From NCBI GenBank assembly GCA_029706075.1, contig JAINUG010000324.1:548115-612114 (forward strand): 64,000 nucleotides of DNA, in the 5' to 3' direction. The stretch comes from Aldrovandia affinis (lineage: Eukaryota; Chordata; Actinopteri; Notacanthiformes; Halosauridae). The notes beneath the pieces were generated by a model. That model made no database searches. It worked only from the letters and a program-made list of their open reading frames with translations, and was not told the DNA's origin. Below are positions 1 to 50,455 of this stretch, one piece after another. Numbering within the stretch: position 1 is the stretch's first letter; each line of letters begins with the position of its first letter. A program made the position numbers and the translations under genes.

Positions 1-2900
1 AGAGTCAGTCATGTAAACTCTGTTTACCTAAAAGCTGTTGCGTTGTGGAGTTTCACATACCAAAGCATGAGGAGAAAGAAAAAGCTACGCTTTAACGTAT
101 TCGCGCTTCTGAATAACTTCCCTGAGAGACGGTTCAAATGGATTCACGCTGTTGCAAGAGCGCTGCTAGGTAATGAGGAGGGGGGCTCTTTTTTCTGTGT
201 GTTGTATTACTGACACACAAGAAAAATGTATCTCTACATTAGGGTGGTTTGGTTATTTCATCTTAGTTTATTGCTAAAGTCCTATCAAAGATATTTTTCA
301 AAAGCGCAGCTAGTGGGTACAGTCATAATGGAACACTGTAATTATAGCTGGTGAACACGCGCGTTACAAATGCATCATCTTTATGTGACTACGGTCTGCT
401 TTTTGCTATATGTCCATCAATACAGAATGCGGGAGACTTAATAGGTAGATCATGCATAGATAATGTTAAAAGTACAACTCGTTGGATTGAGGCAGTTGTT
501 TTCGCTCAAATATTTTGGCTGCTATTCCTACATGGCATTTTATTAGAGGCCAATTCGACTCTACGAGAGTCAAAGTCACTCCTCCAAAACGAACCGCGAA
601 CAGGAAAATAAATAAATAAGTAAATAAACATTTTGCATGAGGTAATTGTTTTGACTTGCACAGGGTATTCACCAGAGAAAGCCACTAACACTCGGGTAGA
701 CAAAAATGAATGTGCGCTTTACAAGCAAAATGACGCAACATGATGTACTCTCTGGGAAATGTTTTGTAAACTTTGCAAATGTAATGAAACTAAGCCCAGG
801 GTAAATGCATTTAAAAAACATTTACTTAAGAAGCACAGACAGCGTGATTTTGCCACGTTGACGAAAAGTGAAATGCTCTAGTGTAGTGCTCTAGTGTGCT
901 GTAGTATTATCGTCATAATGTGTGTGTGTATGGGGGCACGGAAAAAGTACTTTAGTGTCTGTAGCCACTGCCTCGAGCTGAAACCATGATACTTCATTTG
1001 CTCAAAATCAAACAGCCCAAAGTTCTAGTCACAGAATAACCGATGTCTGTCTTTACAAGCATGGCCTATTTATCCCCCAAAAATGTCCAGGAACGCTTCC
1101 CTCTGTGTATTGTGGGCTTCTCACGAACACCCAAGGTTGTGAATTATTTCTGGGGACATTTATGATGGAGATCTGATTTGTGATTCATGCTTCAAACGCT
1201 ACCTCTCTATGGGTGTTCTTATTTGAACTTCACATCTTGTTTAGAAGAGTTAAATATTTACTGCACTAAGCTCTCGAGGCCTCTAAAAGTGAAACATGAC
1301 CAAAGATGCAGGCCCTGGACTACAAATCCATGACGAACATGAAGGCAAACTTTCCCCGATAAAATAAAGTTGATAAATCAGTTTTGTGTTGGGGAAAGGC
1401 TACGGAGAAGGGGGAATCGTGAGGAGTGTCCCCCCCCCCCACCCACTCTTTACGAGGCCTCCAAAATGGCTTCGCTCCGTTTATTGTTTTATAGTAATTG
1501 CGCGCGCTCCCAAGCTTGATTCCGTGTTGCGAACGCGGGGATCTGCGGTGAAAACGAAAACTAATTCAAACGTTAGCACCCATCAAGACGTAAAACATTG
1601 GAAAGAAAAGAAGGGGGGAAAAAAGATTAAGGAAATGATTCTTTTCATCTAATTAATCCTCCCATGCCCAAAGGTTATTTAATTTGTTGAGAGATCATTA
1701 ACGAGTCTCAATCCAGCAAATAAAATAATGAGGATCTTAATTTGCTCCAATTCAAAGAGTAGCATTGCAATAAACAACGGCTGGCAATATCAAGCCTTCT
1801 CACCGCAGAGTCGCTGACGAAATTAGAAAAACACAAATAACGGAGAACTGTGTGCAACTTAATGGCTCTGACAGCAGCGACGATAATTTACACATTGTGT
1901 CGACATGACGCCCCATAAACTGGGAAACAAAACATTAAGTTGTCAGGCTGAAATGATGGGTATTTTAGTGGCTGAAATACACAAAGGGGAAATTGTTTCT
2001 CGTGGTGGTGCTTGTTCTTTTCTGTTACGCCACGCCACCCCACCTAGGCAAGTGACAATATATTAAAATGAGATTAATGGGGGAAAAGGGTGACAAACTC
2101 AGAAATCGATTTTAATTATCGGTTAAGATGTGTGTGTGTGTGTAACCTGCCGGGCTCAACAGAGCCTGTGACCTACTTAGGTCTATGCAGAGTGTGTCTC
2201 TCATTCAGAGCGTCTACTTGCTAAAAACAGGGAAAGCGCGCGAGTTTGTCCCACGCTCTCGCCAATGCACGTCAATGACGCTACAGGTAACACACAGACA
2301 GAAATGGCAAGGATCGGTTTATTTTCACGTACACGGCAATGGAAGATTTCACCCCCTGTGGTTACGAATACTTTGCGTAGGCATTGTCCATTCCCAGCCC
2401 ACACAAAACAACATGTTGTTAGGCAGCGCGTAGGAGAAAAGCATGTTTCCCGGCTCCAGGTGTCAAGGTAGGCTGGCCGTCAAACCGTAACCCCTGACGT
2501 CGATCAAACACGGGGGACCAAAGCGGGGCGGCAAGAAGTCTATTTCTGCTTCAAACATAATAATAATAACATGTTTATATCTGTTGCCTTACGTCTCCTG
2601 AAACCAGCACACACGGAAATGAAGCGTGTGAAAAAAGCAGTGGCGAGCTGTCAGGGTTAATTCGGGGATAACTCTGAATATTAAGCGGATATCGAGAGTC
2701 TTCGCGATGCCCACCCGACTCGTATCTCCATTTCATTTGTATTCTTTGCGCCCGCTGTGACAAGATTCATGTTTTCTAATAAAACCTCTGCTTCTCCAGT
2801 TTCCCGCTTCTTTGCTCAAAGAATGATATAACGTCAGGAGCACTTTATTGAGCGGCTCAAAAAAGATGCCATCATCGCATCCTTCACCGCAAAATATACA
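1..2900. other. intronic DNA, no gene recognised
   Basis: No exon, repeat family or RNA gene is recognisable. The part at about 1650-2000 is AT-rich, evenly mixed and free of simple repeats, like a conserved non-coding element, but only alignment to other fish could show that. Open frames here are short and look random. It lies in the long diaph2 intron downstream of the 105-nt exon. Confidence 0.5.
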
Positions 2901-29449: not shown

Positions 29450-29712
29450 GATAAAAAACATGACTCAAAAGCTAATAAATAATTGCTACTTACCGCAACT
29501 TTGCTCCCAGTTATCTGCATGCGGTCAGCGGAGAGGAGTTAATGTGCAAAAAGACACAAACAGCACAATCATTAGTAGGCCAGAGCTTATCCTGTCTCCA
29601 TTTTGTACAATGTTGAAGGTTTTGTTTTTTTGCGCGCATATAGACTTCATGTTACACACTACCCTGTATGCTGCTCACAGGTGTCATGTGCGGAGAGTAT
29701 GTATAAAAGAAC

Positions 29713-34816: not shown

Positions 34817-34921
34817 GGATTTGGCCGTGGCGGAGATGTACTGGACCACCATCTCCCGCTTGGTGCTCAGGTCCTTCCTGCGCAGCGGCGCCTTGCGCTC
34901 CTCGTTCAGGTTCATGTCCTC
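34817..34921 (-). CDS. diaph2: diaph2 coding exon (105 nt), EDMNLNEERKAPLR segment
   Basis: Thirty-five codons, phase 0 at both ends, encode EDMNLNEERKAPLRRKDLS followed by TKREMVVQYISATAKS. This is the start of the GTPase-binding / armadillo-like region of diaphanous formins, which binds Rho and, folded onto the C-terminal DAD, keeps the formin inactive (family knowledge). QYISATAKS is the DIAPH2 form; DIAPH1 and DIAPH3 differ here. The acceptor is ccccaacag and the donor is gtaagt, a strong consensus. The acceptor has no clean pyrimidine tract: the intron immediately upstream (higher coordinates) is a minisatellite. I find no later diaph2 exon below 34817, so the following intron occupies all of 1-34816 and continues outside the window. 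Confidence 0.93.
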
Positions 34922-34928
34922 CTGTTGG

Positions 34929-35480
34929 GGCACACATCACACAGACCCTTAGTCAGGGGAGAGACCCCACACACATCACACACAGGCCCTTAGTCTTAAT
35001 CAGGGGGGAGGCCCTCAGTCAGGGAGAGACCCGCACACATCACACACAGGCCCTTAGTCAGGGAGAGACATCACACACATCACACACAGGCCCTTAGTCA
35101 GGGGAGAGACACATCACACACAGGCCCTTAGTCAGGGGAGAGACCCACACACATCACACACAGACCCTTAGTCAGGGGAGAGACACATCACACACAGGCC
35201 CTTAATCAGGGGAGAGACGCATCACACACAGGCCCTCAGTCAGGGGAGAGACCCGCACACATCACACACAGGCCCTTAGTCAGGGGAGAGACACATCACA
35301 CACAGGCCCTCAGTCAGGGGAGAGACACATCACACACAGACCCTTAGTCAGGGGAGAGACCCGCACACATCACACACAAACCCTTAGTCAGGGGAGAGAC
35401 CCTTCATCACGCACGCACGCAGTCAGGGAGAGGACACATCACACACGCACACACAGCAGTCGCAGTCAGGGACACACACA
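34929..35480. repeat. minisatellite, 34-40-bp unit, about 14 copies
   Basis: Tandem units of the form CACATCACACACAGGCCC / TTAGTCAGGGGAGAGAC in a shorter (about 35 bp) and a longer (about 39 bp, with CCGCACA) version. Copies degrade into CA-rich sequence near 35400-35490. The array starts about 7 bp from the acceptor AG of the 105-nt diaph2 exon, so in the transcript it occupies the branch-point and pyrimidine-tract region. On the transcribed strand each unit carries CTCTCCCCTGACTAAGG, with a pyrimidine run and a branch-point-like CTGAC. Confidence 0.93.
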
Positions 35481-36999: not shown

Positions 37000-38300
37000 C
37001 AAACGCACAACCCGCAGTGCGATTCGCCCGTGTGCGGTTAAATGGGGGAAGAAAATGGCATCGTTTCTTTGCTACGTGTTCACCTTTGCGTGCTGAAAAA
37101 GAGTGTGCGAGGAAGCATCTCATCTCTGTATTTACTTGTAGGTGAGCAAATCAGTTCTCGTTATTCCAGTCCTTAATAAAATCAGTCAACAGTCAGGAAC
37201 AGAACCGTGCTGAGCTTGCTATCGTCGCAATGCCCAATACGGGATCTTACAGTGCTCCCTTATTCCCCTTAGGAAAGCATGGTGTTCACTAGTCACGGTC
37301 TGCCATGGGTGCAATCCTTTATCTGAGAGAACCCAGAGGAGGCCTGACTATTACCCTGGCTGTGAGGTGAACATTTTTTGTGCCATTTGAACTATGTCTT
37401 GATGCTGGCAACATTTACATGCTCTGCACTCCACAAACCCCTTTTAAAAAATGTGCATCATTTTTTAATTCTCCGTGCACACGGTGTTGAAATAACTGTA
37501 CATATTCCGTAGCCTCACCTCGTCAAAATCAACATTTGGGTTGCTCATCAGGACCTGGACGAGAGCAGCCACGAAGAAAGAAAAAAAAAGCGTCTCTTCG
37601 ACAAAAATATGAAAAAATAAACCTGAGAAAAATATCTGCCTGAAATCTCTTAATGATACAGGCTGTGGGCTCTGGCTTCCCACCAGCCTTCATTTCCTTA
37701 GGTAATTAATGGAGAATTTAACGTCTGTCTGCAACAGAAAAGGAATATGGGACCCATCCAAGGAAAAATAGCTTTTATAAAAAATAAAAAAAGATTGAAA
37801 AAAAAATCCTGTTAGAAATGGAAATTGGTCATAATCTATTAGAAATCTTCCAACCACCCAAGTTTGAGTAATTTATTTTGAACTGTCAAGCGTAAAGTGG
37901 TTTTCGTCTCTTTCCTTGGCGCTAATGCCAACACTGCCAAAACTCTGGTGTCAACCCTGACTGTTGGGGAAGGTTAGATAGCTGCATATGTAAATGCTGA
38001 GGTACTCCCCACCCCCCACCCCCCAAACTTATGCAATGAAAAAAACTCCAAAACAGAAGGGTACTTCATTACTTGCTCCACTGGGGCATGAGTGCATGAC
38101 CCCCAAGAAGGGAGAAACAGAAACAATAGCACAGAAACAATGCTTGTTTCCTAGCCAGTGCTGGTATGTGCTTTATTGGGAATGTTTATTTGGCATGCTA
38201 TTTCATCACAACGCTGTAATGTCCTCTGAAGCCGCATTGTCTGAGGAGTAAGGTACGCTCAGGAGAGCCACCGTCTGGAAGATCAGCCGGCAGGCATCAC
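37000..38300. other. intronic DNA around candidate microexon
   Basis: No transposon is recognised. It contains the candidate 36-nt exon at 37554-37519 and A-rich stretches near 37780-37810. Confidence 0.5.
37519..37554 (-). CDS. candidate 36-nt cassette microexon of diaph2
   Basis: On the minus strand a long pyrimidine tract (a run of T, then ctttcttcgtggctgctctcgtccag) leads into 36 nt encoding VLMSNPNVDFDE, followed by a strong donor (GAG|gtgagg). The segment is phase 0 at both ends and lies in the intron between the 176-nt and 105-nt diaph2 exons, which are also phase 0 there. Including it would insert twelve residues between FEKMM and EDMNLNE without breaking the frame, in the Rho-binding region. 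I do not recall this peptide in any DIAPH protein. Good splice signals around a short open stretch also occur by chance, so it may be a pseudoexon. Transcript data would decide. Confidence 0.4.
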
Positions 38301-38572: not shown

Positions 38573-39635
38573 GTGGTGTGAATAATTGTGATCCAGATGT
38601 TTTCTGGAAAAAAATATTATTAGTAAAACACGTTTTTTTTCTGAAGAATTGTATTGTAGGTTTGGAATTCTATGATTTTTTTGCATAAAATATACCTCAT
38701 TACTTATATAGTTTATTTTATACGATCTCTTTTGTTCATCTTTATCAAGGGTGTGAATAAAAACGGAGTCTACTGTATATACAGTATGTAACATATAATA
38801 TATGTAATATATAACTCCAAAACTATTCAACCCTTGATAAATATGAGCAAAAAAGGCTGTATAAAATACAAATACAATTGCTCAGAGAAAAATATTTGGT
38901 TGAACAATAAAAAGATAATAATTCCCCAAAAATCTGTCACAATTATTCACCCCCCTGTTTTCAGTGCTTTGTGCACCCACTCCGCGCAAGGATGACACGA
39001 CTGAGTCTTCTTCTGTCGTGTGTTACGAGACTGGTGAAAATATTGGGGGATCTTTGACCATTCCTTCACACAGAATCTTTCAATATTCTTCAGATCTTGC
39101 AATTGTGGACTGCCCTCTTCAATTCATCGGTCGGGTTCAAGTCTGGAGACTGAGATGGCCATGGCAAAACATTAATTTTGTGGTTAATTAACCACTTCCT
39201 GGTTGATTTTGAGTTATGCTTGGGATCATGCAAGGGAACCAGGATTTGGCCCAAATGTCTTGGTGCTTGCTGGAGTTCATGATTCTATGTCTGATGGTAG
39301 ATTTGGAGACTTTGTGTCCCCAAGATACAACCAAGTTTTGTAGATCTCCAACTGTGAGGCTTGGATTTTTATTTGCCTCCCAAACAAGAGGCACTGGTGT
39401 GTCCTCTACCAGGCGGGTTTACCACTGTCCACCTAAGAGTGGAAAGTGGTATCTTTAGTTTTTTTAGTTTTTGTTTGTAACCATCTCCTGACAACCTTTT
39501 ATCTTGTTTCTTCCAAGAGTTATTTGCCTTTCCCCATGGTGATGGATGACAAATGGAGCTTACATGTGTGTTACCTCATGTGTGTTACCCCAGTGAACTT
39601 CATGGGAGGCCACAATACAGTTCCCTAAGATTGTG
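38573..39635 (-). mobile_element. degenerate Tc1-like DNA transposon, minus strand
   Basis: Minus-strand fragments of a Tc1/mariner transposase. An amino-terminal helix-turn-helix segment (LTVGDLQNLV then KVSKSTIRHR) lies at 39394-39188. A degenerate catalytic carboxyl part follows at lower coordinates, including a damaged PDLNP-like block near 39140 and QDLKNIERFCVKEWSKIP near 39095-39040. The catalytic middle is largely deleted and stops and frameshifts are present, so it is inactive. AATTATTCAC-type end sequences occur at 38574-38592 and, inverted, at 38937-38955. Transposition would have used DDE chemistry at TA targets (family knowledge). Limits are approximate. Confidence 0.8.
38741..38841. 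repeat. 100-bp inverted repeat with central palindrome
   Basis: The arms TTTATCAAGGGTGTGAATA and, inverted, ATTTATCAAGGGTTGAATA flank AT-rich DNA with a perfect 16-bp palindrome, TACTGTATATACAGTA, at about 38771-38786. It lies inside the 3' part of the minus-strand Tc1 remnant and looks like a MITE, or two Tc1 ends abutting at a TA. Confidence 0.8.
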
Positions 39636-39636
39636 A

Positions 39637-40030
39637 GATGAACATGGTGTGGGGTGCATTTTCCTGGCATGGTAAACACCAATAAATACAAAGGCATTTT
39701 TGAGCTTCATCCCGTGGTGAAGTATTTCTATGCTGGTGGGAGTGGTCTCTTCCGGGATGACAACATGGTTTGACGAGGATGAAAACAATGCAAACCATAT
39801 GCCATTGCTGTCCCAGTCACCATATGTCAGCCCAATTGAACACTTATGGGAGATTCTTGTGGAAGAATGGGGTTGCATCCCTCCAATAGAGTTCCAGACA
39901 CTTGTAGACTATGCCAAGGCGCACTGAAGCTGTTCTGGCGGCTCGTGGTGGCCCAACGCCGTATTAAGAGACCTTATGTTGGTGTTGGAGTGTGATGGAG
40001 TTGGTTCCTTTATTTTGAGTTACCTGTGCA
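39637..40030 (+). pseudogene. degenerate Tc1-like transposase remnant, plus strand
   Basis: Plus-strand pieces of a second, different Tc1-like transposase: MVWGAFSWHG near 39645, then TTWFDEDENNANHM and SPIEHLWEIL near 39760-39860, VEEWGCIPPIEFQTLVD, and RRTEAVLAARGGPTPY ending at a stop near 39965. Family members have a further stretch between EHLWEIL and the EEW block; it is missing here, as is part of the segment after MVWGAF. Stops and frame changes confirm inactivity. It lies head to head with the minus-strand Tc1 remnant. Confidence 0.85.
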
Positions 40031-42291: not shown

Positions 42292-42467
42292 CATCATCTT
42301 CTCGAAGAGGTCCACGATCTCCTTCTCCGAGAGGTTCATGGAGCGGTCGTCGAAGAGCGGCTGTGGCACGGGCAGCTCGGCCTGGTTGATCGGGAGTCGG
42401 TGGGGTGCTGGATCAGCGGCTTCTCCTTCTTCGTGCCTGCCTTCCTGAAGCTGGTGATCCTGTCGCG
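42292..42467 (-). CDS. diaph2: diaph2 coding exon with one-base deletion (frameshift)
   Basis: The exon begins RDRITSFRKAGTKKEKPLIQ and ends NLSEKEIVDLFEKMM. It covers the end of the amino-terminal basic stretch and the start of the Rho-binding / diaphanous inhibitory region of a DIAPH2-type formin. The acceptor is a C-rich tract ending acag and the donor is gtaaac. The two halves are in different frames: frame one runs through HPTDS, then goes out of frame and meets a TGA at 42338-42336; the second frame supplies INQAELPVPQPLFDDRS onward. The exon is 176 nt, one short of 59 codons, and both neighbouring exons are phase 0. A single missing base in the codon after DSx, near 42391-42395 beside a run of three identical bases, explains this. 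Sequencing error, a rare allele or real decay are all possible; the rest is well conserved, so error or a recent event is likeliest. Confidence 0.92.
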
Positions 42468-44892: not shown

Positions 44893-44925
44893 CATGTCAT
44901 CAGCCAATGTTTTAATGTGTATGTT
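44893..44925 (-). CDS. diaph2: diaph2 coding exon (33 nt), NIHIKTLADDM segment
   Basis: This small exon encodes eleven residues, NIHIKTLADDM, closely matching the amino-terminal segment of vertebrate DIAPH2 (human has a very similar NIQIKTLADDV just before RDRITSFRK; from memory). DIAPH2 is a diaphanous-related formin, a cytosolic and endosomal actin nucleator controlled by Rho GTPases. On the minus strand the exon follows a pyrimidine-rich acceptor (ccttcccttctacag) and is followed by a good donor (gtaagatg). It is exactly 33 nt and phase 0 at both ends, so it joins directly to the 176-nt exon starting at 42467. I could not find the preceding exon, which should carry the initiator methionine; it probably lies beyond 64000. 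A DIAPH3 paralogue is less likely, given the downstream QYISATAKS. Confidence 0.9.
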
Positions 44926-50069: not shown

Positions 50070-50455
50070 CCGGCCTCCCGGGTGATGTAGCGGTAGAACG
50101 TCCGACGCTGCCCACTACGACCGGGGTTCGATTCCCCCAGGTTGCGCCAGATTCGGCTCGGGCCAGGAGTGCCACTGACGGGCGGCAATTGGCTGTCCCC
50201 CCCCAGGGTGGGGGGAGGGAAGCCGATACGAGCTTGCTGCGTATAGGAGTGGCCCTGGTGTGCATACCGGAGTTACGGTTCCGGCTCGGAAGAGGCGGTG
50301 CTCCACCACATGTCACTACCGGTTTCATGACTACGGCAGCAAGCTCTCAAATATGAGGGAGGGGATAATTGACGTGAAAAGAGGGTACAATTGGCTACTA
50401 AATTGGGATAAAAATAGGGAAAAAACTGCAGAAAGTGAAAATAGAAAAAGAAAAA
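50070..50455 (+). mobile_element. SINE copy (family C)
   Basis: Head GGCCTCCCGGGTGATGTAGC with A-box-like TGTAGCGGTAGAAC and B-box GGGGTTCGATTCCCC; body with GGCGGCAATTGGCTGTC and CACTACCGGTTTCATGACTA; tail GGTACAATTGGCTACTAAAT, then A-rich sequence. It matches the copy at 57705 in order and spacing. Open frames on its minus strand are not genes. Confidence 0.9.

Follow-up and report, generated by a model that had tools for sequence, protein, structure and literature searches.

On balance, a 36-nt segment in an intron of the diaph2 gene of the fish Aldrovandia affinis appears to be a real cassette microexon, an assignment made from the DNA sequence and held with modest confidence. A genuine exon is favoured because the segment has good splice sites on both sides, is open in phase 0 within a phase-0 intron, is made up of coding-like triplets and is present in one genomic copy. 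It lies in the window, by which we mean the whole 64-kb stretch of DNA that was analysed (C1828:548115-612114, from a genome of 1.22 Gb). The coordinates of the features are collected in Table 1.

Table 1. Features of the diaph2 region, in positions of the window
Feature	Position	Strand	Basis or remark
Diaph2 exon NIHIKTLADDM, 33 nt, phase 0	44893..44925	-	TGCATG starts 67 bases into downstream intron
Upstream diaph2 exon RDRIT...FEKMM, 176 nt, internal frame break	42292..42467	-	Acceptor 13.5
Candidate pyrimidine tract, 17 bases, -35 to -19 before the exon	37573..37589	-	Read from sequence
TGC, -13 to -11	37565..37567	-	Position typical of Srrm4-type UGC elements
Candidate acceptor AG	37555..37556	-	Acceptor score 10.4
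Candidate 36-nt phase-0 cassette exon, VLMSNPNVDFDE	37519..37554	-	Splice and codon scores
Candidate donor GT, GAG/gtgagg	37517..37518	-	Donor score 11.1
GCATG	37418..37422	-	97 bases into intron downstream of candidate; weak evidence
Downstream diaph2 exon EDMNLNE...AKS	34817..34921	-	Start cag/GAG GAC ATG
Diaph2 microexon ITGSKVA, 21 nt, phase 0	29494..29514	-	cag / gtaagt; 5/7 residues as in human IVGSKVT
Open 51-nt pair GGGREADTSLLRIGVAL	50207-50257	+	Acceptor 14.4 (strong), donor 7.0 (moderate); unexplained; second-best splice sum in background

The original prediction had placed an in-frame cassette exon in the Rho-binding region of diaph2, and rereading of the sequence confirmed its coordinates, strand, peptide, acceptor, donor, pyrimidine tract and phase. 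Read on the minus strand from 37554 to 37519, the DNA is ...TTTTTTTTTCTTTCTTCGTGGCTGCTCTCGTCCAG / GTCCTGATGAGCAACCCAAATGTTGATTTTGACGAG / GTGAGG, with cag standing before GTC...GAG. The segment is a multiple of three in length and stop-free, and is translated in phase 0 as VLMSNPNVDFDE. Its host intron of 7,370 bases separates the upstream and downstream diaph2 exons of Table 1, the former ending in AAG ATG ATG/gtaaac; the boundaries of these two exons show that the FEKMM/EDMNLNE intron is in phase 0. As for the wider proposal, the gene, the phase, the splice signals and the position in the GTPase-binding domain held good, and the view that the segment is a real exon is favoured by statistics and by the regional context.

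A human DIAPH2 sequence was used as probe in tblastn, and the EDMN exon was 86% identical to it. The form skipping the segment scored 41.4 bits against the Pfam domain Drf_GBD (PF06371). These two results identify the host gene as diaph2, and the exons flanking the segment were found to belong to this gene and to encode Drf_GBD. Besides the 21-nt microexon, the next downstream diaph2 exon that was found (GGLRNSK...) lay about 45 kb before the window start. An origin of the candidate from a repeat or transposon was rejected: a search of the fish's own genome, with very common words skipped, returned a single match, the segment itself, hence the candidate is no repeat visible to this search, and a second copy of the region was not found. 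Two weak 25-base matches were seen elsewhere in the window. The candidate peptide pattern had no match in the viral_contigs collection and the EDMNLNE-exon pattern none in genome_contigs, zero matches being expected in both for a fish gene.

Other features were noted in and around the host intron. The upstream exon switches frame midway: it begins with RDRITSFRKAGTKKEKPLIQHPTDS and finishes with ...LPVPQPLFDDRSMNLSEKEIVDLFEKMM in another frame, which is either an assembly indel or a real lesion. At approximately 38900-39900, in the same intron as the candidate, six-frame ORFs resemble a broken transposase of the Tc1/mariner family. Upstream of the acceptor of the downstream exon, at 34950-35450, there is a repeated short unit with frames of the type SGERPxHITHRPLVRGET...

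Splice sites were scored on a log2 scale with matrices of the Shapiro-Senapathy type. The candidate donor (11.1) exceeded both flanking donors (4.7 and 4.4), and the candidate acceptor (10.4) fell between the acceptors of the upstream (13.5) and the downstream exon (7.3). Upstream of the segment no clear branch-point consensus was found: apart from the A of the acceptor AG, the stretch that follows the last upstream AG has a single adenine, at -39. Within the host intron three pairs of sites 3-75 nt apart had scores of at least 7 on both sides, and the candidate was the only open one among them. The main competing explanation, to which we assign an appreciable if smaller likelihood, is that the segment is a decoy or pseudo-exon, i.e. 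that an open 36-mer of a long intron has, by chance, splice-like sites on either side that are never or rarely used. Chance was estimated with 3,000 dinucleotide-preserving shuffles of the intron, which yielded 35 open pairs of 3-75 nt with at least the splice sum of the candidate; the resulting expectation of about 0.012 per intron speaks against a decoy. Both single scores were reached by 11 open pairs in these shuffles, and at the candidate's splice sum shuffling predicted 0.053 open pairs per 64-kb strand.

A background of real DNA was assembled from the window and 25 loci of the same genome (551 kb strand-bases); L004, L007 and L008, which overlap other loci, and L029, which lies inside the window, were left out, and 114 bases of L017 duplicate the window end. 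With both sites scoring at least 7, this background contained 169 pairs, 38 of them open. The candidate's sum was equalled or exceeded in 6 of the 169, and the one open pair among these six was the candidate itself. When the site limits were set to 4, the candidate ranked first by splice sum among the 360 pairs in the 551 kb that were open, in frame and 9-75 nt long, and it was first by splice score at each of four smoothing settings. Its sites were thus better than background, and usable splice sites are present on both sides. Two other pairs came close, however: compared with 21.5 for the candidate, the splice sums of GGGREADTSLLRIGVAL and GCTYFL were 21.4 and 20.8. Since these two pairs have no known support and are within 0.7 bits, splice signals alone are no proof, and the existence of such comparable pairs speaks for a decoy. 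Taking splice signals alone, the chance of such a pair is roughly 1-4% for the candidate intron and higher for the whole scanned window; that the candidate was chosen after the fact from 64 kb also counts against a real exon. One recurring sequence, a strong acceptor (ttttccttcccag) with a good donor 8 bases on, was seen at positions 417-424 (minus strand) of L025 and similarly in L018, L020, L021 and L024; it supplies this genome with decoy splice pairs at scattered places.

Codon content was scored with a human codon table against the intron's own triplet content. The candidate obtained 3.33 bits, a value equalled or exceeded by 2.2% of 4,290 stop-free 36-mers of the intron. Among 8,000 shuffled introns, 64 reached the splice sum and none reached the splice sum together with the codon score, a result that weakens the decoy explanation; the two measures are not fully independent because the donor consensus favours a terminal GAG. 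By the combined splice and codon score, with both sites at least 7, the candidate was first among 32 open pairs of at least 9 nt. Rank 2 was a 48-nt formin exon in L001; when it is included, an additional Drf_FH3 match appears, at 25.4 bits with a cut-off of 27, and its comparison with solved structures found 0 sequences. Rank 3 was TLKRLIPDE in the diaph1 locus, sharing 7 of its 9 residues with TLKRLMADE of human DIAPH1. With site limits of 4 the candidate, scoring 24.8, was fourth of 362, and ranks 1-3, 5 and 6 were occupied by segments that lie within coding exons, of diaph3 and of other formins. That the six best pairs consist of the candidate and five parts of coding exons argues against a decoy, as does the drop of GCTYFL to rank 20 of 362. 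The 51-nt pair GGGREADTSLLRIGVAL, which came seventh with 23.5, about 1.3-1.4 bits under the candidate, is unexplained and points the other way. The true 33-nt diaph2 exon had a codon score of -1.13 and a combined rank of 29 of 362, and the 21-nt exon was placed 99th of 360 by splice score and 184th of 362 by the combined score. The measures thus perform less well on other real exons; good scores are informative, and poor scores do not exclude an exon.

The paralogues diaph1 and diaph3 of this fish were located by tblastn with human probes (on C2011 and C1269, respectively), and in both genes the exons flanking the homologous intron align to adjoining human residues. The homologous introns (diaph1, 361 bases; diaph3, 6,434 bases, no N) were scanned for splice pairs on the coding strand and for VLMSNPNVDFDE-like 12-mers on both strands. 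The diaph1 intron contained no splice pairs, and of the three pairs in the diaph3 intron none was open; AG preceded none of the best VLMSNPNVDFDE-like 12-mers listed, eight in diaph3 and three in diaph1. With no similar exon in either intron, comparative support is absent, which adds to the case for a decoy.

A further alternative is that the segment is a constitutive or near-constitutive exon in this lineage, so that the Rho-binding domain of diaph2 would always be 12 residues longer. The donor score, far above those of the flanking exons, would suit such an exon. To our knowledge, however, human DIAPH2 carries no insert between the equivalents of FEKMM and EDMNLNE, and the exons of fish diaph1 and diaph3 adjoin at this point in the human alignment with no exon candidate between them; we consider constitutive use improbable. 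Recursive splice sites have an acceptor AG followed immediately by GT, as is the case here (GTCCTG), but we rate it as highly improbable that the 7-kb intron has a recursive-splicing site or a decoy here in place of a coding exon, as GTCCTG scored 0.8 as a donor, compared with 11.1 for the donor 36 nt downstream, and the frame between the two is open.

If the segment is a cassette microexon, its insertion point corresponds to chain position 24 of mDia1 in the structures 1Z2C and 3EG5. In the GTPase-binding subdomain this falls where the first helix has ended, ahead of the stretch that leads into the second. Of the 12 residues of VLMSNPNVDFDE, three are acidic and none is basic. With them inserted, the Drf_GBD score dropped from 41.4 bits to 25.0; the cut-off is 30.1, so that the domain was no longer recognised. 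The reduction can be counted in favour of a decoy; it fits an inserted optional segment and equally well a segment that does not belong there. In a structural study of FMNL2 with Cdc42, the arrangement of the three N-terminal helices was much like that in mDia1-RhoC; these helices seem to be flexible when the GTPase is absent, and switch II is read by the second of them (PMC4432619).

Most cells would skip the cassette microexon; it would be included where an activator of microexons acts on its TGC/pyrimidine-tract acceptor, the likeliest case being Srrm3/4 in neurons. Inclusion would place VLMSNPNVDFDE between FEKMM, where the first helix of the Rho-binding subdomain ends, and EDMNLNE, which leads to the helix contacting switch II, and the twelve extra residues may loosen or displace the first helix. 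The armadillo domain (DID) that binds DAD would be untouched and the long form would stay autoinhibited; since the DID armadillo repeats are encoded further on, autoinhibition should remain while relief by Rho changes. Activation of the long form by Rho would then occur with a changed, probably weaker, affinity or specificity. Both neural regulation and a Rho-tuning role of the candidate are plausible. The complete picture, in which a fish-specific microexon included in neurons distinguishes a Rho-responsive short form from a long form whose affinity or specificity for Rho is retuned and whose autoinhibition is intact, seems to us rather unlikely.

Were the exon real, splicing would set the response of a formin to Rho. 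The stretch concerned is near-identical in the three diaph genes of this fish and in the human ones. As the edge of the Rho-binding helices would be the sole difference between the two forms, they would offer a clean test of what the Rho-binding subdomain adds to activation, apart from DID-DAD autoinhibition. The reported neuronal microexon of DAAM1 (cited in PMC12626420 and PMC12626424) is likewise a small cassette exon of a Rho-regulated formin; it belongs to another formin and lies in the FH2 region, unlike the candidate, which lies in the GTPase-binding domain. Exon 3b of RAC1B is also a short in-frame cassette exon (19 residues) altering Rho-family signalling, but it alters the GTPase, whereas the diaph2 candidate would alter the effector (PMC6356296). 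A text search of the literature found no mention of four peptide fragments covering VLMSNPNVDFDE and its junction or of a DIAPH2 microexon, a kind of search that leaves room for existing gene models.

The candidate is perhaps a neural microexon. A UGC was found near the 3' end of the directly upstream pyrimidine tract, as in Srrm3/4-dependent microexons. TGC by itself was common in the last 30 bases of acceptor-like sites (74 of 156 on this strand, 51 of 135 on the opposite one), and its combination with a rich pyrimidine tract was rarer (8 of 156 and 8 of 135). This motif support for tissue-specific inclusion is suggestive only. Studies in zebrafish (PMC12626424, PMC12626420) and mouse (PMC3464207) describe Srrm3/4 neural microexons that share with the candidate the small in-frame exon and the UGC and tract before the AG. 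In one zebrafish set, UGC plus a UC repeat or similar tract was reported for 42 of 95 conserved microexons (PMC12626420). Srrm3/4 microexons are defined by lengths of 3-27 or 3-30 nt; at 36 nt the candidate exceeds both ranges and is therefore not filed as an Srrm3/4 microexon, only as one possibly working like it. It fits the class of 28-51 nt, and 82 of 136 zebrafish neural exons of this length were affected by srrm3/4 loss (PMC12626424). None of the main texts of PMC12626420, PMC12626424 and PMC3464207 contains the string 'diaph'.

Small phase-0 exons are frequent near the start of diaph2: there are two, of 33 and 21 nt, and the candidate would be the third. If real, it would make the beginning of the gene a cluster of three such exons. 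The 21-nt exon ITGSKVA is likely a conserved diaph2 microexon. Regulation of the candidate by RBFOX was considered and rejected, as the single GCATG at +97, an RBFOX-type pentamer, is too frequent a motif to carry weight. A study of pancreatic cancer lines reports that exon 2 of human DIAPH1 and exon 2 of human DIAPH2 are both cassette exons that are lost from the mRNA when RBFOX2 is depleted, and that in MiaPaCa2 cells DIAPH2 exon 2 is skipped even with RBFOX2 present (PMC10730836). The 33-nt exon NIHIKTLADDM is probably, we infer, the fish counterpart of this RBFOX-dependent human DIAPH2 exon 2. The two human exons (PMC10730836) resemble the candidate in being cassette exons that lie early in the same genes. 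They sit upstream of the Rho-contacting helices, whereas the candidate interrupts those helices. A GCATG also occurs just before the acceptor of ITGSKVA (gaccGCATGcag).
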